Shown piece by piece: positions 9,684 through 57,802 of a DNA stretch of 64,000 bases. Location: the NCBI RefSeq assembly GCF_900091625.1, contig NZ_FMIC01000002.1, forward strand, positions 2,356,001-2,420,000. Reading direction: 5' to 3'. A program made the position numbers and the translations under genes. The DNA comes from Micromonospora peucetia. Its GTDB lineage: Bacteria; Actinomycetota; Actinomycetes; Mycobacteriales; Micromonosporaceae. The notes below the pieces were generated by a model. The model was not told the DNA's origin, did no database searches, and saw only the letters and a list, made by a program, of their open reading frames with translations. Positions within the stretch are counted from its first letter, which is position 1. Each line of letters begins with the position of its first letter.

Positions 9684-9760
9684 CCCGCGATCTTGCACTT
9701 TCAGCCCTCTTTTTGGGCGCAATGCGGTTTTTGCCTGGGCGCAAACTGCAAGATCGCGGG
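9684..9760. repeat. Dispersed palindromic element, copy A
   Basis: 77-bp imperfect palindrome: CCCGCGATCTTGCA (9684-9697) is the exact complement of TGCAAGATCGCGGG (9747-9760). The interior contains GCCC...GGGC sub-stems. The same ends occur at 34464-34535 and 57723-57802. It is intergenic and encodes no protein. Confidence 0.9.
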
Positions 9761-9813
9761 CGCGGGCGCGGGCGCGGGCGCGAGGGAGAGGGCGGGGGTG
9801 GGGGTGGGGGTGG
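9756..9813. repeat. G-rich tandem repeats right of palindrome A
   Basis: (GCGGGC)n at about 9756-9782 is followed by GGGGGT repeats at 9793-9813, giving at least four G-runs on the plus strand. This is the G-rich wing opposite the (CCGTCC)n wing. The 9526-9824 interval holds only these repeats and the 37-bp element; no gene is seen in it. Confidence 0.85.
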
Positions 9814-9824
9814 GGCTTGCCTGG

Positions 9825-10016
9825 TCAGGGGCGTTTGGCGACCTCGTTGACGAACGCGCGCCACGCCGCCGGTGCGAAGGCGAGCGCCGGGCCGGCCGGG
9901 TCCTTCGAGTCCCGCACCGCGACGAAGCCGGGCAGGTTGTCGGCGACCTCGACGCAGTTGCCGCCGTTGCCGCTGCTGCGGGTGCTCTTGCGCCACCGCG
10001 CGCCATTCAGCTCCAT
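9825..10016 (-). CDS. DUF397 (BldB-like) small protein
   Basis: 63 residues from ATG 10016. It has the DUF397 signature WRKSTRSSGNGGNCVEVAD...VRDSKDP.GPALAF...WRAFV. DUF397 proteins are small actinobacterial partners of XRE/DUF5753 regulators, and BldB of Streptomyces is the known example, acting in development and antibiotic production. The start overlaps the stop of the upstream XRE gene by 10 nt, so the two form a coupled pair. No third anti-sigma-like gene of the kind sometimes found in WhiJ/AbaA clusters is present. Confidence 0.92.
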   Translation of the reverse strand: MELNGARWRKSTRSSGNGGNCVEVADNLPGFVAVRDSKDPAGPALAFAPAAWRAFVNEVAKRP

Positions 10017-10774
10017 GACTCCGCCATTTCCGTGATGAGATCGACAGACTGCCAGTGCGACAGCGCCTCGCCGCGCACGTTTTCCCACGCAGCCATCATG
10101 GCGGCGATGTCGCCCGGGTCGCTAACCACTTGTCCCTGGAGTTGGTTGTCGAGATAGCCGGCGACCCGGTGGTCGCGGCTGCCGGCGAGCACGAACGGCC
10201 CGTTCAGGCCGGCGTACGCCCCGACCGTCGACGGCACGACGTGCACCCGGACGTGCGGCTCGGCGCACGCCGCGACCAGGGCCCGGAGCTGCTCGGACAT
10301 GGTGTCCCGGCCGCCGACCGGCCGGCGCAGCACCGCCTCGTCGATGACCGCCGTGAACTGCGGCGGCTCGTCCTGCCGGAGGATGCCCTGACGGGCCAGC
10401 CGGGACGCCAGGTGCCGCTCGACATCACCCCGGGGGAACAGGCCGCCACCGGTCAGCACGGCCCGCCCGTACGCCTCGGTCTGGAGCAGAACGGGCAACA
10501 CCACCGACTCATACGACCGCAGCGACACCGCCTCGCGCTCGATCTCCTGCCAGGGACGGAACCAGATCGGGTCACGACGTCTCGAAGTGTCCGGCCAGAT
10601 GTCCGACACGTCCCGGCGGAGGGCTTCCGCCGCCGCCAGCCGGTGCCGGGCGTGCGGTATGCGGTCCTCGGTCAACCAGCGCCCGACCGTCTTGGGGTCG
10701 ACGCTGACGGTCTCGGCGAGGGATTCGATCGTGTACCCGGTGTCGCTGAGCGCCACCCGAAGCGCGTCGTTCAC
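10007..10774 (-). CDS. XRE-family regulator with DUF5753 domain (WhiJ-like)
   Basis: 255 residues from GTG 10774. The helix-turn-helix lies at about residues 5-55 (ALSDTGYTIESLAETVSVDP, then KTVGRWLTEDRIP), and the rest is the DUF5753 ligand/regulatory domain, with LPVLLQTEAYGRAV and FTAVIDEAVLRRPVGG. GTG 10774 is preferred to the in-frame ATG at 10786 because GGGAGG lies about 5 nt before the GTG. The WhiJ-type regulators of Streptomyces pair with DUF397 proteins, and this gene overlaps one. The target genes cannot be seen from the sequence. Confidence 0.9.
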   Translation of the reverse strand: MNDALRVALSDTGYTIESLAETVSVDPKTVGRWLTEDRIPHARHRLAAAEALRRDVSDIWPDTSRRRDPIWFRPWQEIEREAVSLRSYESVVLPVLLQTEAYGRAVLTGGGLFPRGDVERHLASRLARQGILRQDEPPQFTAVIDEAVLRRPVGGRDTMSEQLRALVAACAEPHVRVHVVPSTVGAYAGLNGPFVLAGSRDHRVAGYLDNQLQGQVVSDPGDIAAMMAAWENVRGEALSHWQSVDLITEMAESWS

Positions 10775-11010
10775 GGGCCCTCCCATCGGACGTCCCAAAT
10801 ATCTGGGCACCATAGCCCTACGGGCTGTATCTGTCTGCTCACTACCGGCATGTTGGGGTGACGAAGACGGCGCGGCCGGTGGAGGCGAAGGAGCCCGGCG
10901 GTCGGCGTCAGTCGTGGGGCCGCCCCGGCGGGGAGGGCGGGGCGGCCCCCTCCAACCCTTTTCGTCCTCGCCAGGACGAGTCCTGCCGAGCCGCCAAGGA
11001 GGTACCGCCC

Positions 11011-11496
11011 ATGCGAACCCGCCGCGACCCAGCCCCGAGCAGCGAGCCGTCCCCCGCCCCTCCGGACGACCACGACGATCCGCCCGCCGAGCCCGCCGAG
11101 CCCGCCGAGCCCGCCGAGCCCGCCGAGCCCGCCGAGCCCGCCGAGCCCGCCCGGCGGCGGCCGATGACCTGGGCCGTCGGTACGACCATCCGCGTCCCCG
11201 ACGACTCCTACCGCTTCGGCGAGGGCCCACTGACGCTGCGGATCACCGAGGTGCTGGGCGTCGGCCCGTTCGAGGGTCGACTGTGGGCCGAGGTGCGCGG
11301 CCACCAGGTGAACGCCGACGGCACCCTCCGCCCGCGCGAGCGCTTCGCCTCGATCCGCGTCGACCGGGCCCGGGTGGTCCCCACCGTTGCGGGCCAGGTC
11401 GGTGGGGTCTCCACCGGTGCGGGGCAGGTCGCGGCGGTCTCCACCGGCGCAGGCCAGGTCGGTGCGGCGGGGTCGGTCGGGCCGGGGGCGCGGTGA
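11011..11496 (+). CDS. Protein with EPA-repeat linker and conserved core, unknown function
   Basis: 161 residues from ATG 11011, chosen because AAGGAGG sits about 8 nt upstream; the frame is open further upstream without such a signal. Residues about 1-50 contain an (Glu-Pro-Ala)n tandem repeat encoded by GAGCCCGCC units (11089-11150). The core, WAVGTTIRVPDDSYRFGEGP, then LTLRITEVLGV...GRLWAEVRGHQVNADGTL, is a beta-rich domain I have seen in Micromonosporaceae but cannot name. The tail has three GAGQV-type repeats. It is coupled to the next gene by a GTGA overlap. Confidence 0.72.
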   Translation: MRTRRDPAPSSEPSPAPPDDHDDPPAEPAEPAEPAEPAEPAEPAEPARRRPMTWAVGTTIRVPDDSYRFGEGPLTLRITEVLGVGPFEGRLWAEVRGHQVNADGTLRPRERFASIRVDRARVVPTVAGQVGGVSTGAGQVAAVSTGAGQVGAAGSVGPGAR

Positions 11497-11741
11497 GTCG
11501 CCGACGTGAGCATGTCCCGACCCGACCCACGTGGCGCTGCCGGGCGTGCGGCATCGCCTGGCCCTGCTCAGCGGCGAAGCTGCGGCTGCTCGGTGAGTAC
11601 CGCCACGACCGGGCCGCACTCACCGTCTACCTGGCGACCCTCCAGACCGAGGCCGCCGAACAACTCGTCGCGCTCGACTCCGGTGTGAGCCTGACCCACC
11701 TGGCCGACCGGTTCCTCTCCTGGGCCCGCCCGCGCGGCTGA
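11493..11741 (+). CDS. Small Cys-containing protein (82 aa), often misnamed flavin reductase
   Basis: 82 residues from GTG 11493, whose GTGA overlaps the previous stop. The pattern WRCRACGIAWPCSAAKLRLL (C-x2-C-x6-C), then a helix YLATLQTEAAEQL and DRFLSWA, marks a small actinobacterial family that databases sometimes label flavin reductase, which its size makes implausible. A metal or redox role for the three Cys is possible but unproven. The 3' end lies inside a 30-bp tandem duplication. Confidence 0.72.
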   Translation: MSRRREHVPTRPTWRCRACGIAWPCSAAKLRLLGEYRHDRAALTVYLATLQTEAAEQLVALDSGVSLTHLADRFLSWARPRG

Positions 11742-11780
11742 CGACGCGCCGTGGCCCGCCCGCGCGGCTGACGACGCGCC
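11723..11780. repeat. 30-bp tandem duplication spanning a stop codon
   Basis: A 28-base identical segment (GGCCCGCCCGCGCGGCTGAC...) occurs at 11723-11750 and 11753-11780. The first copy encodes the last residues and stop of the small Cys protein, and the second repeats the same end as non-coding DNA. This indicates recent slippage or unequal recombination. Confidence 0.92.
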
Positions 11781-11827
11781 ACGGGCCGGTGGTCCCTCCG
11801 TGCCCGTGCCGCCGCCCGTCGTAGCGC

Positions 11828-12628
11828 TCAGAGCAGCAGGTTGACCAGGGCGGCAAGCCCGACGACCACGATCGTGGCGCGTAGGACCACCGGAGGCAGC
11901 CGGCGTCCCCACCGGCCGCCGATCAGGCCGCCCACCACGGAACCCGCCGCGATCAGCAGCGCCGGCTGCCACGCCACCGTTCCCACGGCGACGAACAGGG
12001 CCGCCGCGACCCCGTTCACCAGGCCGGCGAGCACGTTCTTCACCCCGTTGACCCAGCGCAGGTCGGTGGAGAGCAACACGCCGAGCAGCCCCAGCAGCAG
12101 CACTCCCTGTGCGGCGCCGAAGTACCCGCCGTACACCCCGGTGCCGAACACGCCGAGCAGCAGCAGCGGCCCGACGTGCCGGACCGCCCCGCCACCGGCG
12201 GACGGCGGGCCCGCGCCGTCCGGGACCGGCCGGCGGCGGGCCAACGCCCGCGCCAGTCGCGGCTGCACCACCACGAGCACCAGCGCGAGGACGATCAGCA
12301 CCGGCACGATGGCCCGGAACGCGCCGGGGGGCAGGAGCAGCAGCAGTACGCCGCCGGTGACCCCGCCAAGCACGGCGGCCACGCCCAGACGTGCCAGCAG
12401 GCCGCCGTGCCCGGCCAGATCCCTGCGATAGGCGTACGCCGCGGAAAATGATCCCGGCACCAGCCCGACGGTGTTGGACACGTTCGCCACCACCGGTGGG
12501 AAGCCGAGGGAGAGCAGGACCGGGAAGGTCACCAGCGTGCCCGAACCCACCACCGCGTTGATGGCGCCCGCCGCGACCCCGGCGGCCAGCACGGCCAGCG
12601 CTTCAGGGGCATTCAGCATTACGTTCAC
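11828..12628 (-). CDS. TSUP-family sulfite/anion exporter (TauE/SafE)
   Basis: 266 residues from ATG 12628 with about eight hydrophobic segments. The TSUP signature GAINAVVGSGTLVTFPVLLS lies near the N-terminus, and its second half-repeat GVYGGYFGAAQGVLLLGLLG lies about residue 165. Family members export sulfite, sulfoacetate or related organosulfur anions, or take part in metal homeostasis. No sulfur-metabolism genes are adjacent, so the substrate is unknown. Confidence 0.9.
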   Translation of the reverse strand: MNVMLNAPEALAVLAAGVAAGAINAVVGSGTLVTFPVLLSLGFPPVVANVSNTVGLVPGSFSAAYAYRRDLAGHGGLLARLGVAAVLGGVTGGVLLLLLPPGAFRAIVPVLIVLALVLVVVQPRLARALARRRPVPDGAGPPSAGGGAVRHVGPLLLLGVFGTGVYGGYFGAAQGVLLLGLLGVLLSTDLRWVNGVKNVLAGLVNGVAAALFVAVGTVAWQPALLIAAGSVVGGLIGGRWGRRLPPVVLRATIVVVGLAALVNLLL

Positions 12629-12726
12629 TTTGTCTGCGCTCTCCCCGGGCAGGTCGTCGCCCGCAGGTCGCCGCCGCCCGGTTGTCTCGCTGTCGGATGC
12701 GGCTGTCAGCGTAGGGCGTGGGTCCT

Positions 12727-12802
12727 GCCGGTTGATCGACGTGCGGCAGGGATCACGCCGCGCCCAGCCGCTTGATCGACGCGGTGGGGATCACGCCGCG
12801 CC
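12727..12802. repeat. Two direct repeats of about 36 bp downstream of the HEAT-like gene
   Basis: GCCGGTTGATCGACGTGCGG... (12727-12764) and GCCGCTTGATCGACGCGGTG... (12767-12802) share the TTGATCGACG and GGATCACGCCGCGCC blocks with a 40-bp period. They lie in the interval between the TSUP gene and the HEAT-like gene stop. The function is unknown. Confidence 0.8.
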
Positions 12803-13222
12803 TCACCTCCGCAGTGGGCGCGGTCGCCAGGGCCCGGCGTGGCGGCGGCGTAACCAACGGGGCAGCCGGTGCCGAGGAACGAATGAGCCGATGTCGCCCG
12901 CCGCGTTGTCGGCGTAACCGCGTAGTTGATAGCCACCGAGCACGGTGCGATCGTGCAGCGCAATCCGGAGCAGAGCCAGCGACTCGTCGTCGATCTCCCG
13001 GTGCAGGCGTCCGAAGTGGCCCAGCGACTGCAACGCGTTCGCCCTGGTCTGGGGGTCCCGCGACCGGAGCCCGCGTTTGATCCGGGGAAGGACGACGGCA
13101 GCCGGGTGGGACTCGTCCAGCACCAGCCAGAGGAGTGCCGGCCCAGCGCCCGGCTCCGCACGGTCCAGGGATGCGTCGACGTTTTCCGGGCAGTCGCATT
13201 CGTCGAACTCCGGGCCGGTCAC
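12803..13222 (-). CDS. Small HEAT-like repeat protein
   Basis: 139 residues from GTG 13222. The core ALLWLVLDESHPAAVVLPRIKRGLRSRDPQTRANALQSLGHFGRLH resembles HEAT/ARM-type helical repeats of the kind found in small immunity or scaffold proteins. It ends in an Arg-rich tail. The GTG overlaps by 4 nt the stop of a 19-codon TTG-started frame (13219-13278) that has a better ribosome binding site (GGAAGGAG), so either coupling through a micro-ORF or a frameshifted N-terminus is possible. The function is unknown. Confidence 0.6.
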   Translation of the reverse strand: MTGPEFDECDCPENVDASLDRAEPGAGPALLWLVLDESHPAAVVLPRIKRGLRSRDPQTRANALQSLGHFGRLHREIDDESLALLRIALHDRTVLGGYQLRGYADNAAGDIGSFVPRHRLPRWLRRRHAGPWRPRPLRR

Positions 13223-13278
13223 GTGCCGGACATCGCGATCGGCTGTGTCCAGAGCAGCCAGCGGGGGATCTTGTCCAA
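13219..13278 (-). CDS. Possible 19-codon leader/micro-ORF coupled to the HEAT-like gene
   Basis: TTG 13278 is preceded by GGAAGGAG at good spacing. The frame encodes MDKIPRWLLWTQPIAMSGT and ends with TGA, which overlaps the GTG start at 13222. It could be a real upstream micro-ORF or the true N-terminus of the downstream gene after a one-base frameshift. The evidence is limited to spacing and overlap. Confidence 0.35.
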   Translation of the reverse strand: MDKIPRWLLWTQPIAMSGT

Positions 13279-13491
13279 GCGGACCACTCCTTCCAGCCTT
13301 GCCCGTTGAGAGCGATGTCGGCCACCGGTGGTTCGTCGATGAGACATTGGCATGTGCCGGGCAGCACAACCGCGGCCCGTCGTGGCGCCTGGTGCGGAGC
13401 TGACGCCAGGACGCAGCCCTCATGGGACATTGGCGAGCGGCCATGGCTGACCGGTCTCTGATTGTTGCTCGGCACCCTGTCTAATACGAAT

Positions 13492-14748
13492 ATGCCGACG
13501 GTTCGTGATCGATTCGCTGCTGCACGTGCGGGTTGGATGTCGGGCAGGTCTGTTCGAGTACCCGGCGCTGCGCCACGTTGGCGGACTTCCGCCCTGCGGG
13601 CGCGTGGTTCCCGCGCCGGTGGCCCGGTGCCGGTGGTGCAGCCGGAGCGGCAGTCCCGTGTGCAGGTCGTGTTCCAGGGGGTCACCGCGCTGACGGCGGT
13701 CGCCGCGTTGTTGTTCACCGCCCAGTCCCTGGTCTACACGGCTGACGCGACCCGGGCGACCCGTGCCCAGATCGATCTCGCCGCCCGGGGCCAGATCGCC
13801 GACCGATTCAACCGGGCCATCGACCAGCTCGGTCAGACCGGTCTGGACAAGCTCAGCGTCCGACTCGGCGGCATCTACTCCCTCGAACGCATCATGCGCG
13901 ACTCGCCCGAGGACGAACCCACCGTCATCGCGGTCCTGAGCGCCTTCCTCCGTACCAACGCACGCAGGAAGGCCGAGCCGGTCAGGTCAGCCGACCCGCT
14001 CAAGTCACCGAAACCCCCACCGGCAGCGCCGGAAGACGTGCGCGCGGCCTTTGCCGTGCTCGCCCGACGGCCACACCCCGAACACGAGCAGAACCGTCGC
14101 CTCGACCTCGCCGGTACCCAACTGTCCCTACCCGAGATCTCCCTACCCCACGCGAGCCTGCGCGATGCGAACCTGCGCGACGCGGACCTCAGTTTTTCGG
14201 ACCTGACCAATGCGGACCTGAGCAGCGCAGATCTGGTCGGCATCTATCTGAACGGGGCGAACCTGAGCGGGGCGAATCTGGCCGGCTCGTACATGTCGTA
14301 CGCGAAGTTGAGTGTCGCGATCCTGGATGGCGCAAACCTGACCAACACGACCCTGGGCTTCGCGTACCTGGGCGGCGCGGATCTGGGCGGCGCGGACCTG
14401 AGGGACGCGGATCTGAGCGGTGCGGACCTGGGCGACGCGGACCTCAGCAACGCGAACCTGACCGGCGCGGATCTGAGGGGCGCAGACCTGAACGAGGCGA
14501 ACCTGACCGCCGCGAACCTGACCGGCGCCCGCTTGGACGACGCGGACCTGATCAACACGAATCTGACCGGTACGCACCTGACCGGCGCGGATCTGAGTGG
14601 CGCGGATCTCGACGGCGCGGATCTGAGCGGCGTGACGGGGCTGACCAGTGAGGCTGTTCGGTGCAGCCGGGTGGGTGAGCGGACCCGGTTGCCAACCGGC
14701 GTGACGCGGCCTTCGGATGTGCCGGTGAGCAAGAGGCCGTTCTGCTGA
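13492..14748 (+). CDS. Membrane-anchored pentapeptide-repeat protein
   Basis: 418 residues from ATG 13492 (a TTG at 13462 is an alternative start). There is one hydrophobic helix at about residues 58-82, then a conserved segment RGQIADRFNRAIDQLGQTG and LGGIYSLERIMRDSPEDEP, which is typical of actinobacterial membrane pentapeptide proteins. Residues about 203-383 are some 36 A(D/N)LxX pentapeptides, expected to form a right-handed quadrilateral beta-helix. Some members of the superfamily mimic DNA and protect gyrase, but members with this transmembrane N-domain have no known function. The repeat makes the minus strand falsely open. Confidence 0.88.
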   Translation: MPTVRDRFAAARAGWMSGRSVRVPGAAPRWRTSALRARGSRAGGPVPVVQPERQSRVQVVFQGVTALTAVAALLFTAQSLVYTADATRATRAQIDLAARGQIADRFNRAIDQLGQTGLDKLSVRLGGIYSLERIMRDSPEDEPTVIAVLSAFLRTNARRKAEPVRSADPLKSPKPPPAAPEDVRAAFAVLARRPHPEHEQNRRLDLAGTQLSLPEISLPHASLRDANLRDADLSFSDLTNADLSSADLVGIYLNGANLSGANLAGSYMSYAKLSVAILDGANLTNTTLGFAYLGGADLGGADLRDADLSGADLGDADLSNANLTGADLRGADLNEANLTAANLTGARLDDADLINTNLTGTHLTGADLSGADLDGADLSGVTGLTSEAVRCSRVGERTRLPTGVTRPSDVPVSKRPFC

Positions 14749-14846
14749 CAGGAGCGCGCCGTGGTCCAGCGGGGAGAGTGACCGCAGAGACGACTCAGGG
14801 CCGGTCCCCGGTGGGCCGACCCTGTCGTTCGTGCTGCTCAAGCGAG

Positions 14847-14931
14847 CGGAGGATACGAGATTCGAACTCGTGAGGGTGTAAACCCAACACGCTTTCCAAG
14901 CGTGCGCCCTAGGCCTCTAGGCGAATCCTCC
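14847..14931 (-). tRNA. tRNA-Ser (anticodon GGA)
   Basis: 85-nt class II tRNA on the minus strand. The acceptor GGAGGAT (complement of 14925-14931) pairs with ATCCTCC (complement of 14848-14854), discriminator G. The anticodon stem-loop CACGC-TTGGAAA-GCGTG gives anticodon GGA. There is a long variable arm, the T-loop is GAGTTCGAATCTC, and no CCA is encoded. Confidence 0.96.
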
Positions 14932-15008
14932 GCAGACGAGGATACAGGTCCCCGGCGGGTGGGCCACCCCACCACCCCCTGAAGATCGACGCGGCGTCGG
15001 GTAGGGTT

Positions 15009-15106
15009 GGCGGTACCTCCCGTGCGGCGGTATCTCGTGAACCTCCCCAGGGCCGGAAGGCAGCAAGGATAAGCGAGCTCTGCCGGGTGCACGGGAGGCC
15101 TTTTTG
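15009..15106 (+). ncRNA. ffs: Signal recognition particle RNA (small 4.5S type)
   Basis: It contains the SRP domain IV hallmark CAGGGCCGGAAGGCAGCAAGG (about 15049-15067), with the GGAA tetraloop and the asymmetric internal loop bound by Ffh. The closing helix pairs CCTCCCGTGC (15017-15025 region) with GCACGGGAGG (about 15089-15098), followed by CCTTTTTG as terminator. The position between tRNA-Ser and dnaX matches other actinobacteria. The exact ends are approximate. Confidence 0.93.
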
Positions 15107-15210
15107 TCTCCGGGTCCCGGTAACGTCCCTGCGGGTCAGGTCACGGGGTGGTGGGTGGTCACCCGCGCCTGACCGGCGCAGAATGGCTCGGTCGAGAGGA
15201 GGCGGGACGA

Positions 15211-33261: not shown

Positions 33262-34323
33262 GTGGCGCCGCTGCCCACCCTGGCCGTGGTCGGCGCGACC
33301 GGTGCCGTCGGCACGGTGATGTGCGAGCTGCTCAGCGGCCGGAAGAACGTCTGGGGCGAGATCCGGCTGCTCGCCTCCGAACGCTCGGTCGGGCGGCGGC
33401 TGCGCTGCCGGGGCGAGGAGTTGACCGTCCAGGCGCTGACCCCGGAGGCGTTCGACGGCGTCGACGTGGCGATGTTCGACGTCCCGGACGAGGTCTCCGC
33501 GCGGTGGGCGCCGATCGCGGTCGGTCGCGGGGCCGTCGCGGTGGACAACTCCGGTGCCTTCCGGATGGACCGCGACGTCCCGCTGGTGGTGCCGGAGATC
33601 AACCCCGAGCAGGTACGCAACCGCCCGAAGGGCATCATCGCCAACGCCAACTGCACCACCCTCGCGATGATCATCGCCATCGCCCCGCTGCACCGCGAGT
33701 ACGGGCTGCGCGAACTGGTGCTCGCCTCCTACCAGGCAGCCTCCGGTGCCGGCCAGAACGGCGTGGACACCCTGCACGCCCAGCTCACCAAGATCGCGGG
33801 GGACCGGGTGCTCGGCACCCGCCCCGGCGACGTACGCCAGGCGGTCGGCGACGAGGTGGGCCCGTTCCCCGCGCCGCTGGCGCTCAACGTGGTGCCCTGG
33901 GCCGGCTCCCTGGTCGACGCGGGATGGTCGTCCGAGGAGATGAAGCTGCGCAACGAGTCGCGCAAGATCCTCGGGCTGCCCGACCTGAAGGTCTCCGCCA
34001 CCTGCGTACGGGTGCCGGTGGTGACCGGCCACTCCGTCGCGGTGCACGCGGTCTTCGCCACCGAGGTGGACGCCGAGGGCGCCCGCGAGGTGCTGCGGAA
34101 CGCGCCCGGGGTGATCCTGGTCGACGATCCCGCCGCCGGCGAGTTCCCGATGCCCATCGACGCGGTCGGCACCGACCCCTCCTGGGTGGGCCGGATCCGC
34201 CGCGCCGTCGACGACCCCCGCGCCCTGGACTTCTTCGTCACCGGCGACAACCTTCGCAAGGGCGCCGCCCTCAACACGGCCCAGATAGCCGAACTCCTCG
34301 CCAAGGAACAAACCCCCCGCTAA
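33262..34323 (+). CDS. asd: Aspartate-semialdehyde dehydrogenase
   Basis: 353 residues from GTG 33262, 5 nt after the ask stop. It reduces aspartyl phosphate to aspartate semialdehyde with NADPH. LAVVGATGAVGTVM is the Rossmann loop, VDNSGAFRMDRDVPLVVPEI follows, ANANCTTLAMI carries the active-site Cys (about 134), and RVPVVTGHSVAVHAVF carries the catalytic His. All expected residues are present. It works directly after ask in the same operon. Confidence 0.96.
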   Translation: MAPLPTLAVVGATGAVGTVMCELLSGRKNVWGEIRLLASERSVGRRLRCRGEELTVQALTPEAFDGVDVAMFDVPDEVSARWAPIAVGRGAVAVDNSGAFRMDRDVPLVVPEINPEQVRNRPKGIIANANCTTLAMIIAIAPLHREYGLRELVLASYQAASGAGQNGVDTLHAQLTKIAGDRVLGTRPGDVRQAVGDEVGPFPAPLALNVVPWAGSLVDAGWSSEEMKLRNESRKILGLPDLKVSATCVRVPVVTGHSVAVHAVFATEVDAEGAREVLRNAPGVILVDDPAAGEFPMPIDAVGTDPSWVGRIRRAVDDPRALDFFVTGDNLRKGAALNTAQIAELLAKEQTPR

Positions 34324-34360
34324 ACCCTCCCCACCCTCGCTCCTCCCCCTCTCGCTGCGC

Positions 34361-34450
34361 GCCTGTGCTGCGTGCCCTGCGCCCGTGCTGCGTGCCCTGC
34401 GCCCGTTCCCGTGCCCTGCGCCCGTTCCCGTGCCCCCGTGCCCCGTGCCC
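34361..34450. repeat. C-rich tandem repeat (20-bp units)
   Basis: Units GCCCGTGCTGCGTGCCCTGC (34361-34380 with one change, 34381-34400) and GCCCGTTCCCGTGCCCTGC (34401-34419) follow one another, decaying into CCGTGCCCC runs. It is the C-rich wing left of palindrome B. Confidence 0.88.
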
Positions 34451-34463
34451 CGCACGTGCGCCT

Positions 34464-34535
34464 GCGATCTTGCACTTTCTGCCCCGTCAAAGCGGGGCAA
34501 AGTGCGCATATCAGGGGCCGAAACTGCAAGATCGC
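34464..34535. repeat. Dispersed palindromic element, copy B
   Basis: GCGATCTTGCA (34464-34474) is the exact complement of TGCAAGATCGC (34525-34535). The interior has CCCCGT...AGCGGGG as a second stem and the shared 3' block GAAACTGCAAGATCGC. It belongs to the same family as 9684-9760 and 57723-57802. Confidence 0.9.
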
Positions 34536-34540
34536 GGGGC

Positions 34541-34705
34541 GCGGTGCGGGCAGGGCAGGGTGCGGGGCGGGCAGGGCAGGGTGCGGTGCGGGCAGGGCAG
34601 GGCGGGGCGCGGTGCGGGCAGGGCAGGGTGCGGGGCGGGCAGGGCAGGGCAGGGCGCGGTGCGGGCAGGGCAGGGCGGGGCGCGGTGCGGGCAGGGCAGG
34701 GTGCG
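34541..34705. repeat. G-rich tandem repeat, about seven units of 20-27 bp
   Basis: Repeats of GCGGTGCGGGCAGGGCAGGG with variants, all on the plus strand. Each unit supplies GGG runs spaced by 1-3 bases, so several intramolecular G-quadruplexes are possible. It is the G-rich wing right of palindrome B and is roughly complementary to the C-rich wing. Confidence 0.9.
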
Positions 34706-34790
34706 GGAGGCGAGTGTGGGGCGCGGGGTGTGGGGTGCAGGGGCGCGGGTGCGGGTGCGGGGTGGGGGCCGGGGTGGCGTGGGTGGGGTG

Positions 34791-36314
34791 TCAGGCGGGG
34801 GCTAGGCGGACGCCGTCGCGGCCGTGTTGTTTTACCGCGTAGAGCGCCTGGTCGGCGCGGCGTAGCGTGGCCTCGGGGGACTCGCTGGGGCGGGGGAGGG
34901 CCACCCCGACGCTGATCGTGCGGCCGATCTGCCTTGCCGCCTCGGCCAGGCGCTCGGCGATCCGGACCGCCTCTTCGGGGCGGCTCACCTCGATCACCGC
35001 CACGAACTCGTCGCCGCCGACCCGGTAGAGCTCGTCGCCGTGGCGCAGCGCCGCCTCCAGGGCTCGGGCCAGCCGGACCAGCACGCGGTCGCCGGCCTGG
35101 TGGCCGTACGTGTCGTTGACGGTCTTGAAGCCGTCCACGTCGACCGCCAGCAGGGCGGTACGCCCCGGGGTGGCTGCCGCGATCCGTTGACCGAACGGTC
35201 CCGTGTGCCGTAGGCCGGTCAGCGGGTCCGAGTTGGCCTGCTCGCGGAGCCGGGCCAGGGTGCGCAGCCGGTCCAGGCAGCTCCAGGCCTGGCCGGCGAG
35301 CAACTCCAGCAGGTTGACGGTGGTCGGGTCGGGGCGCAGCAGTCGTTCGTCGGCGACCAGCAGCACCCCGCCATTGTCGGGCGGGCCGACCGGCACTGCG
35401 ACGAGGGTGCGTACCCCGGCCCGGGTCAGCGGTCGGTGGTCGGGGATCGGCGGGTGTCCCGCCTCGCCGAGTGTGTAGCCCACGCCGTGACGGTGGGCCC
35501 GGTTGACCAGGCGGTCCAGCGCGGCCGGGCCCGCCTCGGTCAGTTCCGCCCGGACGCGGGCCTCCAGTTCGTCCGGGGTGGCCGGCGGTGTGCCCAGGCG
35601 GGGCCCGTCCGGACCGGTGAGCACCAGCACCGCCGCGGAGAGGGTGGAAACGTCCCGGGCCGCGGCGATCGCGGCGGCGAACAGGTCCCACTCCGTCGAC
35701 GCGGAGCTCAGCGCGGCGGCGTGCCGGAGGAGTTTCTCGCTGCGGCTCTCCTCCGGTGGTCCGCCGAGCGCCACGATCCGGGCGCCGAGCCGGGCTGCCA
35801 GCCGCTCGGCGGTGTCGCGCCACGGGGCCAGGTCGGTCGGGCCGCACCACTGGAGGTCCAGCACGCCGATGGGTCGACCCGCCGGGTCCAGCACCGGTAC
35901 GCACACCTCGGTGGTGACGTCGGGGCGTACCGGGATGTAGTCGGGGTCGTCGGCGACGTCGGGTACGACGGCGGTCTCGCCGGAGGCGTACACCCGGCCA
36001 ACGATCCCGGTCTTCGGCGGCACGGTGGAGAAGACCTGCCAGGAGCCGGTGGCGGCGACGCAGCGGAGCCGGTCGTGGACCTGGAGCAGGACGGAGATGG
36101 TGGCCGGCGCGTGCCGGGCGAGCGTGGCGACGGTCCACTGGCAGGCCTCGACGACAGTCGACGCCATGGGGAGGCGGACCGTGACGTCACGGATGACTCG
36201 CTCGTGATCCACTCGGCACGTCGTTCCAGGTAGGGAGGGCTGCGACCGGCGGGCGGGCCCGCGATCAAGAGTACTCAGCGGGGCGTCGGAGTGCCTGTGC
36301 GCAAGATCATCCAT
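34791..36314 (-). CDS. GAF-GAF-GGDEF protein (probable diguanylate cyclase)
   Basis: 507 residues from ATG 36314 (start uncertain; ATGs further in are possible). Two GAF-type sensory domains are visible (about 90-200: TGIVGRVYASGETAVVPDVA...VCVPVLDPAGRPIGVLDLQW; about 215-370). The GGDEF domain (about 385-505) has DPLTGLRHTGPFGQRI, VDVDGFKTVNDTYGHQAGD and the intact active site VGGDEF (about 435). No RxxD I-site is evident before the active site, so product inhibition may be weak. It probably makes c-di-GMP in response to a small ligand or redox signal. The 37-bp composite motif lies directly before the start. Confidence 0.9.
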   Translation of the reverse strand: MDDLAHRHSDAPLSTLDRGPARRSQPSLPGTTCRVDHERVIRDVTVRLPMASTVVEACQWTVATLARHAPATISVLLQVHDRLRCVAATGSWQVFSTVPPKTGIVGRVYASGETAVVPDVADDPDYIPVRPDVTTEVCVPVLDPAGRPIGVLDLQWCGPTDLAPWRDTAERLAARLGARIVALGGPPEESRSEKLLRHAAALSSASTEWDLFAAAIAAARDVSTLSAAVLVLTGPDGPRLGTPPATPDELEARVRAELTEAGPAALDRLVNRAHRHGVGYTLGEAGHPPIPDHRPLTRAGVRTLVAVPVGPPDNGGVLLVADERLLRPDPTTVNLLELLAGQAWSCLDRLRTLARLREQANSDPLTGLRHTGPFGQRIAAATPGRTALLAVDVDGFKTVNDTYGHQAGDRVLVRLARALEAALRHGDELYRVGGDEFVAVIEVSRPEEAVRIAERLAEAARQIGRTISVGVALPRPSESPEATLRRADQALYAVKQHGRDGVRLAPA

Positions 36315-48504: not shown

Positions 48505-48581
<77 letters not shown>

Positions 48582-50179: not shown

Positions 50180-50196
50180 CCGGTTGTCCGGCTGGC

Positions 50197-52620: not shown

Positions 52621-53025
52621 CCAGGTCACCTCGACAGGGTACGCGAGTAGGGAACGAGGGGCGCTGGGGCGTTCTTTCCCCATTTCCTGCGCGCGCCGAC
52701 CTCGTTGTGCTAAACGCACGACCCCCGGTGCGTGGTTGCGTGAATCCGCCGCCGAGTCTCCCTCCTGCAAGAGGGGGCCCGCAGCGTTTTCGCGGACTTC
52801 GACGGGGTAACCGGCGGTCGCAAAGCCCGGGAAGCCGGGAGTGTCCGGAATGATGGATTTCGCCGACAACGTTGCGTAATCAGTCGACTACAGAGCATGA
52901 TGGTGGCGGCGACAGCGCCACATGTCGTCCGTGCCGCCTTGGGGAAGGCAGGCCGGGCGATCGGGGGGAATTGCCGGCTGGTCCGCGACGGGGTCGGTAG
53001 GTACTGCAAGGGGGGACGTGTACAG
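52621..53025. other. Divergent control region between ponA and whiB
   Basis: 405 bp without a gene. It contains several GC-rich hairpins (CCCTCCTGCAAGAGGGGG near 52760, CCCGGGAAGCCGGG near 52830) and must hold the promoters of both genes. I looked for a known riboswitch and found none I could support. Confidence 0.6.
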
Positions 53026-53346
53026 ATGGGCATGATCACTGACTGGCCGTCGCTGGCGGCGTGTCAGAACGGGGACCCGGACGCGTTGTTCGTACAGGGT
53101 GCCGAACAGAACGTGGCGAAGCGGATCTGCCGGAGCTGCCCAGTTCGGTACGAGTGCCTGGCCGACGCGCTGGACAACCGGATCGAGTTCGGCGTGTGGG
53201 GCGGCATGACCGAACGCGAACGCCGCGCGCTGTTGCGCCGTCACCCGCAGGTGGCGAGCTGGCGCAAGATGTTCGAGGCCGCGATGAAGAAGAACGCCAA
53301 GGACAAGGCCGGCAAGGACAAGATCCTCGTCACCACGGCCGGCTGA
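53026..53346 (+). CDS. WhiB-family Fe-S transcription factor (WhiB4/WblA type)
   Basis: 106 residues from ATG 53026, preceded by AAGGGGGGA. Four cluster-binding Cys are in place (C13, C35, C38, C44; C-x2-C-x5-C), then the GVWGGMTERERRAL turn motif and a basic tail. WhiB proteins bind a 4Fe-4S cluster, interact with sigma factors, and WhiB4/WblA controls redox homeostasis (Mycobacterium) or development and antibiotic synthesis (Streptomyces). The neighbours, PBP and GET3-like ATPases, identify it as the WhiB4/WblA orthologue by synteny. Confidence 0.93.
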   Translation: MGMITDWPSLAACQNGDPDALFVQGAEQNVAKRICRSCPVRYECLADALDNRIEFGVWGGMTERERRALLRRHPQVASWRKMFEAAMKKNAKDKAGKDKILVTTAG

Positions 53347-53352
53347 GCGCCG

Positions 53353-54504
53353 TCATGGCCGGCTGAGTGCCGTGCCGATCGTCCGCAGCCCGTCGACGTC
53401 GTGCACGTCGGCGGGCTGCGCGGTCACCGGCACCGCCGGCACCGCCGGGAACGCCTCGGTGAACCGGGCCGCCACCTGCTGCTCGCGTACCGCCTGCTGG
53501 GCCAGCGCGGCGTGGGCCCGCAGCACGTCGACGGTGCCCTGGTGCCCACCGAGGCCGGTCAGCCGCTCCGCGGCGGCCAGGCTCTTCGCCGCGTCGAGGC
53601 CGGGCACCGCCGGGCGGTGCACCCGGTTGAGCACCAGGCCCGCCAGCGGCATCTTCTCCTCGCGCAGCCGGCCCGCGAAGTAGGCGGCCTCCCGGACCGC
53701 GTCCGGCTCCGGCGCCGCGACCAGCAGGAACGCCGTCTCCCGGGCCTGGAGGATGCGGTACGTCTGCTCGGCGCGCTGCCGGAAGCCGCCGAACATCGAA
53801 TCCAGCGCGGCGACGAAACCGGACAGATCCGTCAGCAACTGGGCCCCGAGCACCTTCTGCACGATCTTGGAGAACATCCCGAACGAGGCCGTGACCAGGC
53901 TGAACATGCTCCGCCCGCCGGTACGCGCCGGCGCCAGCAGCAGCCGCAGCATCCGCCCGTCGAGGAAACGGGACAGCCGGGCCGGGGCATCCAGGAAGTC
54001 CAGCGCCGAGCGGGACGGTGGGGTGTCCACCACGATCAGGTCCCACTCGCCCCGGGCGTGCAACTGGCCCAGCTTCTCCATCGCCATGTATTCCTGCGTG
54101 CCGGCGAAGGTCGAACTCATGGCCTGGTAGAAGGGGTTGGCGAAGATCTCCGCCGCCTTCGCCGGATCGGTGTGCTGGAGCACCACGTCGTCGAAGGTGC
54201 GCTTCATGTCGAGCATCATGGCGTGCAGCTCGCCGCCGCTGGCCTCGACGTCGATCCCCTTCACCTGGCGGGGGGTGTTGTCCAGCTCGGTCAGCCCGAG
54301 CGACTGGGCCAGCCGGCGGGCCGGGTCGATGGTGAGCACCACCGTGCGTCGGCCGTGCTGTTCGGCGGCCCGCAGCGCGAGCGCGGCGGCCGTGGTCGTC
54401 TTTCCCACCCCGCCCGCCCCGCAGCACACCACGATCCGGACGCCCGGATCGGCGAGGATCTGATCGACGTCCAACTGCGGCGCCGCGTCTTCGGAAGGCA
54501 CCAA
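53353..54504 (-). CDS. GET3/ArsA-like ATPase (Rv3680 type)
   Basis: 383 residues from TTG 54504 (a GTG follows 3 nt later). P-loop CGAGGVGKTTTAA (about 28-40), switch I DPARRLAQSLGL, switch II VVDTPPS and an ANPFY helix are typical of ArsA/GET3 ATPases. Mycobacterial Rv3679/Rv3680 form a heteromeric Get3-like complex with a reported role in glycerol and hydroxyacetone tolerance, and their mechanism remains unclear. The partner gene follows 54 nt upstream. The stop is 6 nt from the convergent whiB stop. Confidence 0.92.
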   Translation of the reverse strand: MVPSEDAAPQLDVDQILADPGVRIVVCCGAGGVGKTTTAAALALRAAEQHGRRTVVLTIDPARRLAQSLGLTELDNTPRQVKGIDVEASGGELHAMMLDMKRTFDDVVLQHTDPAKAAEIFANPFYQAMSSTFAGTQEYMAMEKLGQLHARGEWDLIVVDTPPSRSALDFLDAPARLSRFLDGRMLRLLLAPARTGGRSMFSLVTASFGMFSKIVQKVLGAQLLTDLSGFVAALDSMFGGFRQRAEQTYRILQARETAFLLVAAPEPDAVREAAYFAGRLREEKMPLAGLVLNRVHRPAVPGLDAAKSLAAAERLTGLGGHQGTVDVLRAHAALAQQAVREQQVAARFTEAFPAVPAVPVTAQPADVHDVDGLRTIGTALSRP

Positions 54505-54558
54505 TCGAGCGTATCGGGCCGAGTCGGTCCGCGCGCCCGTGCCGGGTCCAGGTGTGAG

Positions 54559-55536
54559 TCAATCCGCCCGCAGGAGAGTCGCGGCGAGCCGGTCCAGGCC
54601 GGCCCGGTCCACCCCGTCGGGCAGCAGCGGCAGCTCGATCATCGGCAGCCCCAGCTCCACCAGGTCGGTCCGGAGCGAATCTTCCAGCTCGCGGCGGATG
54701 GCCTGGTCGCGTGCCTCGGCGGCCAGCCCGGCGACGGTGTTCCGGTCGGTCGGCAGCCCGGCGGCGCGCAGCCCCCGCTCCAGCTCGGCGGCGGTCACCA
54801 CCCGGCCCGCGGGCACCGGCGGCCGGGCGCTGTTGACGATCACCCGCCCGACGGGGAAGCCGAGCTGGGCCAGTTCGGTGATCGCGTCGACGGTCTCCTG
54901 GACCGGCATCTCCTCGAGCAGGGTGACGACGTGCACGGCGGTGATCGGGGAGCGCAGCAGCGCGGCGACCCCCTCGCTCTGGGTCTTGATCGGGCCGACC
55001 TTGGCCAGCCGGGCCGTCTCGGCGGTGACGTTCAGGAACCGGCCGATCCGCCCGGTGGGCGGCGCGTCCAGCACCACCGCGTCGTACGCGCGCCGCTGCC
55101 CGCTGGTGCGGGTGGTCGCCTCCTTCACCTTGCCGGTGAGCAGGACGTCCCGCAGGCCGGGGGCGATGGTGGTGGCGAAGTCGATCGCCCCGAGCTTGCG
55201 CAGCGCCCGGCCGGCCGCGCCGAGCTTGTAGAACATGTCGAGGTATTCCAGCAGGGCCTCCTCGGCGTCCACCGCCAGGGCCCGCACCTCCCCGCCGCCC
55301 GGCGCGTCGGTCAGGTGCCGCTCCTCGTACGGCAGCGGATCGGTGTCGAAGAGCTGGGCGATGCCCTGTCGCCCCTCGACCTCGACCAGCAGCGTGCGCC
55401 GGCCGCCGGCGGCCAGCGCGAGGGCCAGCGCCGCCGCGACGCTGGTCTTGCCGGTGCCGCCCTTGCCGGTCACGACGTGGAGGCGGGCCGGCCACTCCGT
55501 AGCGGCCGGGTCGGCCGGCGACTCTGCTGCTCGCAC
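54559..55536 (-). CDS. GET3/ArsA-like ATPase (Rv3679 type)
   Basis: 325 residues. P-loop TGKGGTGKTSVAAA (about 23-36), EGRQGIAQLF in place of the usual DPA switch I, and VLDAPPTGRIGRFL as switch II. It is the second chain of the paired ATPase, consistent with Rv3679 (about 340 residues). The two genes lie in the same direction, with this one first. There is no C-terminal membrane-interacting extension like yeast Get3. Confidence 0.92.
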   Translation of the reverse strand: MRAAESPADPAATEWPARLHVVTGKGGTGKTSVAAALALALAAGGRRTLLVEVEGRQGIAQLFDTDPLPYEERHLTDAPGGGEVRALAVDAEEALLEYLDMFYKLGAAGRALRKLGAIDFATTIAPGLRDVLLTGKVKEATTRTSGQRRAYDAVVLDAPPTGRIGRFLNVTAETARLAKVGPIKTQSEGVAALLRSPITAVHVVTLLEEMPVQETVDAITELAQLGFPVGRVIVNSARPPVPAGRVVTAAELERGLRAAGLPTDRNTVAGLAAEARDQAIRRELEDSLRTDLVELGLPMIELPLLPDGVDRAGLDRLAATLLRAD

Positions 55537-55562
55537 CCGTCGAGCCTATCCAGGCCGTGGAG

Positions 55563-56171
55563 TCAGCCGACCTCGCAGACCCACCAACCCGTCTGCTTCA
55601 CCACGGTGAACCGCAGGTCCTGGTCGGCCACCTTCTCGTCGGCGGTGGTCATGGTCACCTTGGTGATGACCGTGGCGCGGTCGGCGGTCTGGTTGTCCAC
55701 CTGTGGGCTGCTCCATCTGAACCGGGGGTTCTGGTGGGCCGCAACGTGCTTCTCGACCTCGGCCACCTTGGCGGCGACCTTCTTCTCGTCGCGGGACGAG
55801 GAGCAGACCAGCCCGGCCGCCCGGTCCGCGTCGCGGTCCTGGTAGACGGCCTTGAGGAACTCGTCCACCGCGACCGCCGGCTCCTTGGCGCCCTCGCCAC
55901 TCTCGGCGTCGCGCAGCGTCAGGAACGCGACGACGCCGCCGACGGCGCAGAGCAGCAGGATCACGGCCAGGGCGATGGAGGCGATGAGCACGCCGCGCTT
56001 CTTCCTGGGTGCGGCGGGCGGCTGGTACGCCGGGTCCCCGGCCGGGGGCGGCGGGCTCGACGGGTCCGGGGCGGCCGTCGGCGCGGGCGGGGCGGCGGCG
56101 TCGGGAACCGTGGGGGTGTCCGGCTGCTCGGCCGGCGATCCGACGGGACCACCACTGGGCGGTTGGGTCAT
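55563..56171 (-). CDS. Single-pass membrane protein of unknown function (202 aa)
   Basis: 202 residues from ATG 56171. A Pro/Ala/Asp-rich cytosolic part of about 55 residues precedes one membrane helix (GVLIASIALAVILLLCAVGGVVAFL) and an extracytoplasmic domain with a VDEFLKAVYQDRDADRAAGLVC pattern and a final Cys, which together resemble the DUF4878 / lumazine-like snoaL-type small domains in actinobacterial membrane proteins. It is separated from the ATPase gene by 26 bp and could be in the same transcription unit. Confidence 0.72.
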   Translation of the reverse strand: MTQPPSGGPVGSPAEQPDTPTVPDAAAPPAPTAAPDPSSPPPPAGDPAYQPPAAPRKKRGVLIASIALAVILLLCAVGGVVAFLTLRDAESGEGAKEPAVAVDEFLKAVYQDRDADRAAGLVCSSSRDEKKVAAKVAEVEKHVAAHQNPRFRWSSPQVDNQTADRATVITKVTMTTADEKVADQDLRFTVVKQTGWWVCEVG

Positions 56172-56483
56172 CTCATTCCCCCGGGGTTGCGACGTCGTCG
56201 CCTGCCCCGGCGACGCGCGTGATCGAGCTGGCGGCGAGCCGGCGAGCGCCCGTCCGACCGGAAGGGTAGCGGTCGGTTCCCCGCTCCGGGGGGGCGGCGA
56301 GTGCCGTCGGGTTCCTTACCAAGACTGTGTCGCATATGTGACTTCACGTGATCGAACGTGCGCGTCCTGTTTGCGGGTCTGTCGCCACGGACCTACGTTC
56401 TCAGCGGTGTGGGGGACGGGGCGGACGGACGGTCCGGGCCCGTGAGCGTTGACGTGACCAGGCACGACGTCCGGAGGCAAGGC
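56172..56483. other. Divergent promoter region
   Basis: 312 bp without a clear gene. The stretch around 56325-56355 is AT-richer and contains GTGACTTCAC and CACGTGATCG, possible regulatory palindromes. The downstream gene start is at 56484 (GGAGG 7 nt before it). Confidence 0.55.
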
Positions 56484-56969
56484 ATGCGCGACGTGGACAA
56501 CATCCATCGAGCCCAGTTCCCGGCGGGGGACCGGGCGCGGCGGCCCGGGTCCGGCTTCTCGGGCGAACCCGAGGGTAGCGCCGGCCTGCCCGTCAACGAA
56601 CGGTCGTACCGGCGGCTCGCCGAGCCCGTCGAGGCGGTGCGCCCGGCCGGCCGGCCGGGCCCGGGCGGCCGGGACGAGGAGGAGCCCGGGTACGTCATCC
56701 ACCTGCCGATCCGGGTCGCCGACCTGAGGGCGGCCACCGCGCTGGCCGGCACCGTCGCCACCTCGCTGAGCTTCCTGACCGAACTGGACGCCGGCGAGAC
56801 CACCGTGTCCAGCACGGACGACCAGAACAACCGGCACCGGGTCTTCTGCGACCTGCTGCTGGCGGACCGCTCCCGCTGCCCCCAGCCGTACGAGCACGGT
56901 GGGCCCTGCGGGGAGGTGCCGATGCCTCCGGAGCAGCGTCCCGCGTCCCGCCCGTCCGCCGGACCGTAG
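56484..56969 (+). CDS. Cytosolic protein of unknown function (161 aa)
   Basis: 161 residues from ATG 56484 with GGAGG upstream. A charged, Arg/Pro/Gly-rich N-terminus (about 70 residues) precedes a compact domain, GYVIHLPIRVADLRAATALAGTV and LSFLTELDAGETTVSSTDDQ with CDLLLADRSRC near the end. It lies 47 nt before the DUF4177 gene, in the position occupied by a short gene in other actinobacteria. The family is not recognised. Confidence 0.68.
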   Translation: MRDVDNIHRAQFPAGDRARRPGSGFSGEPEGSAGLPVNERSYRRLAEPVEAVRPAGRPGPGGRDEEEPGYVIHLPIRVADLRAATALAGTVATSLSFLTELDAGETTVSSTDDQNNRHRVFCDLLLADRSRCPQPYEHGGPCGEVPMPPEQRPASRPSAGP

Positions 56970-57015
56970 GCTGTGCGTCGAGAAGTCGAACTCCATCCGA
57001 GGGAGCCCTCCACCA

Positions 57016-57171
57016 ATGCAGAAGTGGGAATATTCCACGGTCCCGCTGCTGGTCCACGCGACCAAGCAGATCCTCGACAACTGGGGTGAGGACGGGTGGG
57101 AACTCGTCTCCGTGGTTCCCGGTCCCAACCCGGAGCAGCTCGTCGCCTACCTGAAGCGGCCGAAGGCATGA
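57016..57171 (+). CDS. DUF4177 protein
   Basis: 51 residues from ATG 57016. MQKWEYSTVPLLVHATKQIL, then DNWGEDGWELVSVVPG, is the DUF4177 signature (small W-rich protein of unknown function). In M. tuberculosis the corresponding gene (Rv3678A) sits in the same place, between RidA and the GET3-like ATPases. It lies in the same direction as ridA. Confidence 0.92.
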   Translation: MQKWEYSTVPLLVHATKQILDNWGEDGWELVSVVPGPNPEQLVAYLKRPKA

Positions 57172-57247
57172 GCGAGCGGAGCGAGCGAGTCATTCTGTTC
57201 AGGGCGTCGGTGTCTCCTGACACCGCCGAGCGCAGCGAGGTGGCGGC

Positions 57248-57709
57248 ATGAGTAACGGTCCGCACGCGAAGCTCGCCGAGCTCGGGCACACGCTGCCCGA
57301 GGTCGTCCCGCCGGTGGCCAGCTACGTGCCGGCCGTCCAGTCCGGGCAACTCGTCTACGTCTCCGGGCAGTTGCCGAGTGTCGAGGGCAAGCTGCTCGCC
57401 ACCGGCAAGGTCGGCGCCGGCGTCTCCGCCGAACAGGCCAAGGACCTGGCCCAGCGGTGCGCCCTCAACGCGCTGGCCGCGATCGACTCGCTGGTCGGCC
57501 TGGAGAACGTCGTCAAGATCGTCAAGGTGGGCGGCTTCGTCGCCGCCGCCCCCGGCTTCACCGCCGTGCCCGGCGTGATCAACGGCGCCTCCGACCTGTT
57601 CACCGCGGTCTTCGGTGAGGCCGGCCGGCACGCCCGCAGTGCCGTGGGCGTAGCCGAACTCCCCCTCGACGCCCCCGTAGAGGTAGAGGTCATAGTCGAG
57701 GTCTCCTGA
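57248..57709 (+). CDS. RidA/YjgF-family protein
   Basis: 153 residues from ATG 57248. VASYVPAVQSGQLVYVSGQL, then LPSVEGKLLATGKVGAGVSA, with AFAQRCALNALAAIDSL-like helix and SAVGVAELPLDAPVEVEVI at the end, marks the RidA/YjgF/UK114 family. Typical RidA proteins hydrolyse reactive enamines/imines from PLP enzymes. The canonical catalytic Arg is at the SAVGVAELP position in many members as R-x-x-x-x-x-L-P, and here the R is R in HARSAVGVAELP. It corresponds to Rv3678c. Confidence 0.9.
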   Translation: MSNGPHAKLAELGHTLPEVVPPVASYVPAVQSGQLVYVSGQLPSVEGKLLATGKVGAGVSAEQAKDLAQRCALNALAAIDSLVGLENVVKIVKVGGFVAAAPGFTAVPGVINGASDLFTAVFGEAGRHARSAVGVAELPLDAPVEVEVIVEVS

Positions 57710-57722
57710 CCCACGCCGCCTC

Positions 57723-57802
57723 CCCCGCGATCTTGCACTTTATGCCCCGGCAAAAGCCGTGAAGTGGGACGTATCAAGGGCTGAAACTGCAAGATCGCGG
57801 GG
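57723..57802. repeat. Dispersed palindromic element, copy C
   Basis: CCCCGCGATCTTGCA (57723-57737) is the exact complement of TGCAAGATCGCGGGG (57788-57802). The 3' block CTGAAACTGCAAGATCGC is shared with copy B. It begins 13 nt beyond the ridA stop and ends 30 nt before the next start, so it could act as a transcription terminator. It has no repeat wings. Confidence 0.9.

Follow-up and report, generated by a model that had tools for sequence, protein, structure and literature searches.

Three copies of an intergenic palindrome were found in a 64,000-nucleotide stretch of the Micromonospora peucetia genome, referred to here as the window (positions 2356001-2420000 of contig NZ_FMIC01000002.1, C2 below). 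Their spans and shared end sequences are as a preliminary description of this DNA had given them (Table 1). Exact matches to GATCTTGCA begin at 9689, 34466 and 57729 and exact matches to TGCAAGATC at 9747, 34525 and 57788, with no other exact match to either in the window; the units delimited by GATC measure 67, 68 and 68 bp. At copy 3, the ridA-like gene (ridA below) and the metallo-beta-lactamase-fold gene are on the same strand, and the unit stands 23 bp ahead of a conserved TACGAT hexamer, near an ATG. This hexamer and the ATG 8 bp further on (57820-57835) form, judging from the sequence, a probable leaderless promoter and start of the metallo-beta-lactamase-fold gene. We moved the start of this gene upstream, in the same frame, from the 57986 assigned by the gene caller, which was 153 bp too late.

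Table 1 The palindrome copies, their flanks and the neighbouring genes (positions in the window)
Feature	Position	Strand	Remarks
Copy 1	unit 9689-9755; palindrome including CG-rich edge 9684-9760	+	core WWWTG on + strand
Copy 1 core	9708-9736	+	three TG steps spaced 9 bp: TTTTTG, AATG, TTTTTG
Copy 1 left flank	9624-9683		C-rich, CCCGTC repeats
Copy 1 right flank	9761-9820		G-rich
Copy 2	unit 34466-34533; palindrome 34464-34535	-	between convergent asd and GAF/GGDEF gene; core CAAA (TG on - strand)
Copy 2 left flank	34324-34463		C-rich, from asd stop codon to copy 2
Copy 2 right flank	34536-34790		G-rich tandem repeats, reaching the stop of the convergent gene
Copy 3	unit 57729-57796; palindrome 57723-57802	-	between ridA and metallo-beta-lactamase-fold gene
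Copy 3 left flank	57710-57722		C-rich, starts at ridA stop codon
Copy 3 right flank	57803-57819		G-rich; conserved in all 30 ridA loci read
asd (aspartate-semialdehyde dehydrogenase)	33262-34323	+	upstream of copy 2; PF01118/PF02774
GAF-GGDEF gene	34791-36167	-	convergent with asd; PF00990/PF13185
ridA-like gene	57248-57709	+	upstream of copy 3; PF01042/PF14588
Metallo-beta-lactamase-fold gene	57833-58660	+	downstream of copy 3; PF00753/PF17778 on 57986-58657; start inferred
DUF5753 gene	10007-10774	-	3' end toward copy 1, about 250 bp off; PF19054; start uncertain
TACGAT, -10-like hexamer	57820-57825	+	just ahead of ATG 57833; identical in 29/30 ridA loci

The window copies belong to a large family. 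The class A pattern, GATCTTGCASTT-N-AASTGCAAGATC, matched 84 copies in the M. peucetia genome (7.37 Mb) and its reversed-pattern control none; the looser arm form, GATCNTGNASTT, gave 93. Assuming independent bases, about 1.5e-4 such 9-mer pairs would be expected by chance per whole genome. The preliminary description had held that dozens of copies, placed where genes converge or run in tandem, would support a family, and such copies are present. In a Micromonosporaceae sample, 83 of 300 genomes had class A copies (maximum 139), representing 9 of the 44 genera; the looser form occurred in 2 of 396 genomes of a phylum sample, both of the same genus as M. peucetia. The 80 named loci among the matches listed were all from Micromonospora or Verrucosispora, and a single class A pattern scan of viral contigs, from which near records may be omitted, gave no match. 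Within the genomes sampled the family is restricted to Micromonosporaceae. Five arm classes, A to E, were distinguished (GATCTTGCA, GATCATGGA, GATCATGAA, GATCATGCA and GATCTTGGA); 40 of 106 genomes of the genus had no class A copy, and other GATCNTGNASTT classes occur in 35 of them. Among the papers listed in literature searches, by text and by sequence, none was recognised as describing it, and this family of about ninety 67-68 bp sites is apparently undescribed. Along C2 the copies seem unevenly placed (the first 100 of 153 matches by coordinate span only 3.3 of 7.27 Mb), and none of the matches listed lies on the 96 kb contig C1.

The units proved to have an ordered anatomy. Of 147 distinct copies from fetched loci, 143 had a GATC-to-GATC length of 67 or 68 bp; the search pattern itself required the GATC at both ends. 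On either side the outer 12 bp were near-invariant, in part because the search patterns imposed this, save for a C or G at position 10; the C/G pairing there was not used, since the pattern fixed that position. In the GCCC/GGGC box (positions 16-19), positions 17-19 vary and yet are paired above shuffles (z 3.7-8.3), an excess to which differences between species may add. Positions 21, 23, 26 and 27 are anti-palindromic, with standard pairs in 0.08-0.14 of copies against 0.34-0.36 after shuffling, because the core is directional. This core is 29-30 bp long and holds three CA/TG repeats 9-10 bp apart; in oriented 67-mers, positions 27, 36 and 45 are mostly G following an AT-rich block. By eye, TG reads on the + strand in copy 1 and on the - strand in copies 2 and 3. 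In the cores of 155 class A copies, CA/TG steps at lag 9 numbered 93 against 26.5 expected after base shuffling (z 13.1), and lags 18 and 19 were raised too (z 6.6 and 5.1). A/T blocks are spaced about 9.5 bp within the core and 12-13 bp toward the arms, and are therefore roughly helical on average. The interiors do differ between copies, as had been noted, but they are not free: they have a near-fixed length, a direction and 9-10 bp direct repeats.

A simple script based on codon usage called the genes around 150 copies, which leaves starts and small genes uncertain. Five copies overlapping gene calls and 22 at locus edges were excluded, and of the 123 classed, 67 lay between convergent, 52 between tandem and 4 between divergent genes; the median distance to the facing stop codon was 35 bp. 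Control gaps from these loci, 90 bp or longer and with palindrome-bearing ones kept, comprised 106 convergent, 249 tandem and 135 divergent cases (Fisher, divergent, 9e-11). The 45 copies examined in the M. peucetia genome were 26 convergent, 17 tandem and 2 divergent (median 85 bp from the stop), compared with 6, 36 and 29 palindrome-free gaps. Copies inside conserved genes had been named beforehand as an argument against an intergenic family; four of the five overlaps with gene calls are at or near a frame edge and one (L131) lies deep inside.

The element does not end at the palindrome. Left of the unit the DNA is C-rich and right of it G-rich, with a skew of about 0.5 adjoining the unit that falls to 0.3 at 40-60 bp and 0.13-0.15 at 100-150 bp and has vanished by 200-300 bp; in palindrome-free gaps the skew was -0.02 to +0.01. 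About 150 bp of skewed flank on each side belong to the element. A transcript approaching the unit contains 0.60 C and 0.23 G (116 flanks). The skew also reaches into genes: over the final 30 coding bases it is -0.30 in 122 genes whose end lies at most 60 bp from a copy, and -0.04 in 508 others. Exact tandem repeats were present in 35 of 142 non-coding flanks and in 4 of 416 control gaps. In comparisons of orthologous loci, most of them 93-97% alike, the flanks proved largely rebuilt and the unit retained, most clearly in L063/L026 and L064/L067; these groups had been found by pattern, so arm identity is biased there and we took from them only the turnover of core and flanks. The preliminary description was silent on these flanks, as on the directional core, the sister arm classes and the orthologue of the ridA copy across the genus sample described below; it understated what is there.

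Our preferred reading, to which we assign a probability of roughly 0.4 on the strength of the sequence comparisons, is that these are REP-like (repetitive extragenic palindrome-like) nucleoprotein sites at gene 3' ends acting as bidirectional transcription boundaries. It is based on the location, the C-rich approach from two sides, the hairpin, and the replacement by other palindromes in the same gap. The sites are most likely protein-bound boundaries at which transcription from either side would stop. A terminator role, which the preliminary description had thought plausible, fits this 3'-end context. In the proposed mechanism, the two identical outer arms (GATCTTGCASTT) would be recognised by a lineage-specific trans-acting DNA-binding protein, while the 29-30 bp core would be bound and bent by a filament of BldC/MerR-like winged-helix proteins, bringing the arms together into a complex that would act as the boundary. 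RNA polymerase from either side would first produce C-rich, G-poor RNA of the Rho-loading type and would then meet a hairpin-forming roadblock and be released. Spread would be in units of about 70-80 bp, dispersed in the manner of REPs, and copies would also be retained by selection. Rho-dependent terminators have C-rich, G-poor RNA ahead of the stop point, as do the 116 flanks upstream of the presumed stop point. The anatomy, the 3'-end location, the symmetric skewed flanks, the sister classes and the association of arm integrity with class A content at one locus are observed; we infer both proteins, the bending, the part played by Rho and termination itself.

Part of this evidence would be expected of plain intrinsic hairpin terminators that bind no protein and were repeatedly amplified since they are active both ways. 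The three window copies place a stable hairpin past a stop codon, with predicted RNA folds of -24.7, -32.8 and -26.1 kcal/mol (z -2.6, -5.2 and -3.7 against 200 dinucleotide shuffles), that is, -25 to -33 kcal/mol in 67-68 nt. In the available text of PMC8269248, stem-loops without a U-rich tract form one of three classes of transcript 3' end in Streptomyces clavuligerus. No U-rich tract follows the hairpin; the right flank is G-rich. A plain hairpin needs neither invariant arms nor a length of 67 or 68 bp, neither an anti-palindromic core nor a directional 9 bp repeat, and we regard this explanation as improbable. The narrow length, the directional core and the class-linked arms led us to prefer bound proteins. 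The sites also resemble the bidirectional transcript ends of Streptomyces, where ends on both strands occur at one place, although the same available text does not describe those as one sequence family with invariant arms. At the gathering cut-off, no Rfam family matched the copies.

For the core, a candidate protein is suggested by analogy. According to the available part of PMC5859096, BldC, which is MerR-like, binds head-to-tail to 9 bp direct repeats with the rule AATTXXXX(C); the directional, AT-rich 9 bp direct repeats of the family core fit this rule. Unlike the family units, the BldC sites described in that part are promoter sites without inverted arms. Two BldC-type genes above the curated cut-off were detected in each of the 11 genomes searched, 7 of which hold no copy by the looser pattern. 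Binding of the core by a BldC-type protein is thus a lead, not proof. In most of the 11 genomes the BldC-type open frames are about 70 and 118 aa long.

The chief alternative is that of a miniature mobile element, selfish or neutral, dispersed by a putative recombinase that recognises the arms; the 3'-end location would then reflect tolerance or target choice, and the skewed, repeat-bearing flanks would be scars of cleavage and repair at the palindrome. In the eight M. peucetia pairs with the most similar cores, likeness was confined to the unit and a few bp within unrelated flanks; the units have therefore been copied. Copy number swings widely, from 93 in M. peucetia to 7 in G306 by the looser pattern even though their asd genes are 96% alike, and the presence of a palindrome at asd varies among relatives. 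The rebuilding of flanks between loci 93-97% alike, the excess of tandem repeats and the near-symmetric skew whatever the gene direction suit a mobile or neutral element well. Other observations do not. Target-site duplications showed no clear excess at 45 M. peucetia copies (offsets 0-8; lengths 2-6, 8 and 9), class A-positive genomes retain the arms at an orthologous locus, and there is order in both length and core. The skew did not fall significantly with apparent youth (Spearman -0.15, p = 0.32, 45 copies), leaving a gain of skew with copy age unsupported. The loci read contained no transposase-encoding element bounded by such arms, distant arm pairs not having been searched for systematically genome-wide. 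We consider the mobile or neutral element somewhat less likely than the preferred reading.

The same results bear on the earlier proposal of a REP or MITE (miniature inverted-repeat transposable element) family. Like MITEs, the copies are short, non-coding and dispersed and have terminal inverted repeats; unlike MITEs, they have no target-site duplication and no partner transposase that was found, and at an old locus the arms have been preserved in class A-positive genomes. MITE is thus unsupported and REP-like a fair description; of the suggested check on empty sites and duplications, presence and absence at asd was borne out and duplications were not. REPs, according to the available sections of PMC3733652, measure 20-40 bp, have an unpaired GTAG or CGTC at one end and lie mostly between convergent or tandem genes, near stop codons. 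The family shares with the REPs so described a dispersed, extragenic, high-copy occurrence, the convergent or tandem setting and the proximity to stops; it differs in its 67-68 bp, symmetric GATC arms, directional core, skewed flanks and lack of a link to RAYT (REP-associated tyrosine transposase). The GTAG/CGTC tag is absent from the copies. REPs are the nearest known kind, with the same location and copy number and without the same tag and RAYT link.

Mobilisation in trans, as raised in the preliminary description, was tested in one form, that of classical REPINs (REP doublets forming hairpins) moved by a RAYT tyrosine transposase. REPINs, as outlined in the available parts of PMC3116915 and PMC8049555 and in general knowledge, likewise combine two inverted conserved ends with a variable spacer and are long-kept; the family, too, is dispersed and extragenic, with two conserved arms flanking a variable middle. 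Unlike REPINs as outlined there, it has no link to Y1_Tnp, and its arm classes vary between related species. Y1_Tnp (PF01797) was present in 20 of 80 genomes and did not track copy number (Spearman -0.05, p = 0.69): G264 has 174 copies and no Y1_Tnp, and G150 has 0 copies by pattern and 7 Y1_Tnp. The single Y1_Tnp of M. peucetia is IS200/IS605-like and neighbours a tnpB-like gene; its 3.35 kb locus contains no palindrome. A RAYT/IS200 transposase was rejected as partner on these grounds, and with PF01797 as the marker tested, this explanation is refuted in that form and as a whole extremely improbable.

A slim chance remains with a nucleoid or topology site, bound by gyrase or an architectural protein at convergent transcription in a role like that of REPs of the BIME (bacterial interspersed mosaic element) type. 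The convergent bias and the roughly helical spacing of A/T blocks agree with it; tandem and promoter-proximal copies exist, and specificity by arm class would be unexpected for gyrase.

Several findings weigh against sites acting as transcription boundaries at gene ends. The skew is nearly the same on 64 sides facing a gene start and 204 facing a gene end (non-coding part): 0.58 and 0.57 at 4-20 bp, 0.32 and 0.44 at 40-60 bp, and 0.36 and 0.33 at 60-100 bp. Near-equal skew on start-facing sides is not explained by selection on mRNA ends, or by the stopping of incoming mRNA, alone. Core direction had no significant link with transcription in tandem pairs (31 v 19, p = 0.12) and was rejected as a transcription signal. 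The core is also enriched in CA/TG steps at lags 5, 10, 14 and 23 (z 3-5). Copy 3 lies near a probable promoter, and the class A copy at L131:4438 is within a high-scoring 3.3 kb open frame on the opposite strand; either this gene was called wrongly or the copy is truly intragenic.

The asd gap offers a view of one site across relatives. In all, 33 loci were tried, of which 30 were found by flank (one per genome, best of 61, M. peucetia included), L031 and L138 were found by the class A pattern, and L114 was dropped for its low match. A palindrome was recognised in 15 of the 30 flank-found loci (17 of 32 counting L031 and L138). The other 15 flank-found loci had no recognised palindrome, a point against the boundary reading. 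G306, the closest relative at asd (96%), has none there. Palindromes of the GATCATGGA, GATCATGAA and CAGAGAAAGAG types occupy the same place in the asd gap of relatives, mostly with the same flank skew. In small samples, the outward skew was 0.42-0.55 for classes B (4 copies), C (8, all 55 bp) and D (1); by eye, the 55 bp class C has no clear AT-rich direct repeat, a point against the preferred reading. The last 60 coding bases of asd were more C-skewed beside a palindrome (-0.43 v -0.33, p = 0.011, not tree-corrected). In L149 and L153, from the asd gap of relatives, a CAGTTTCAGAGAAAGAG / CACTTTCAGAGAAAGAG palindrome type stands in the position of the GATC classes.

The ridA locus holds an old copy. 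In the best 30 of the matching loci from 61 genomes, the stretch orthologous to copy 3 aligned in all 30, intact or decayed, in some strongly, and 68 bp separated the outer ends of the arms in 24. Among the 20 loci with a class A count (the other 10 were excluded), the arms had at most one mismatch in 9 of the 11 from class A-positive genomes and in none of the 9 from class A-negative genomes (Fisher 3e-4); they had no mismatch in 7 of the 11 and again in none of the 9 (0.005). The core was retained despite decayed arms in several loci (L224, L230). Contrasts were read on a tree of the flanking genes of the 20 genomes: the comparisons of G279 with its sister clade and of G231 with G257 clearly agree with the association, and that of G141 with G150/G289 is a near tie. 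M. peucetia against G306 agrees as well but stands off the tree, because no class A count is available for G306, in which the looser pattern matched 7 copies. Three points count against the association: G259/G273 opposes it (G259 has 69 copies and 7 mismatches), few independent phylogenetic contrasts lie behind it, and the core is altered as well in L217, L227 and L228. The tracking of class A content by arm integrity at ridA suggests, as support and not proof, that a trans-acting factor may bind the arms.

A broader interpretation, which we hold to be doubtful, is that these sites may constitute a new chromosome-marking system of Micromonosporaceae. A fast-switching arm-binding protein (classes A-E) and a conserved core filament would together form boundary complexes at gene ends, each leaving a strand-asymmetric scar of about 150 bp on either side that bends codon use, and old sites would decay after loss or switch of the protein. 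High-GC actinomycetes are often without U-tract terminators. If the interpretation is correct, there would be a REP-like family without RAYT machinery, with an ordered arm-core-arm anatomy, a class-linked arm state and a compositional footprint extending into coding sequence, and it would offer a concrete route to how high-GC actinomycetes separate convergent genes. Arm class and the proposed arm-binding factor would then form a natural co-evolution experiment. Gene calling and codon statistics close to gene ends might also be disturbed by the flanks.

The near identity of class E copies in G106 was considered as proof of mobility and rejected, because most of the 18 ride within a larger repeat of about 170 bp with its own ends (GAGCCTGTTGCG...). 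Of the 20 stretches fetched from this genome, two (L195 and L196) were taken as diverged copies; in L177-L194 the repeat of about 170 bp has the ends GAGCCTGTTGCGYAATTCG, with a class E palindrome inside most. Many copies of this repeat are flanked by inverted outer sequence, as if inserted into hairpins. Rfam matches in the window include a small signal recognition particle (SRP) RNA gene and two tRNA genes (15014-15103, 4780-4866 and 48508-48581).

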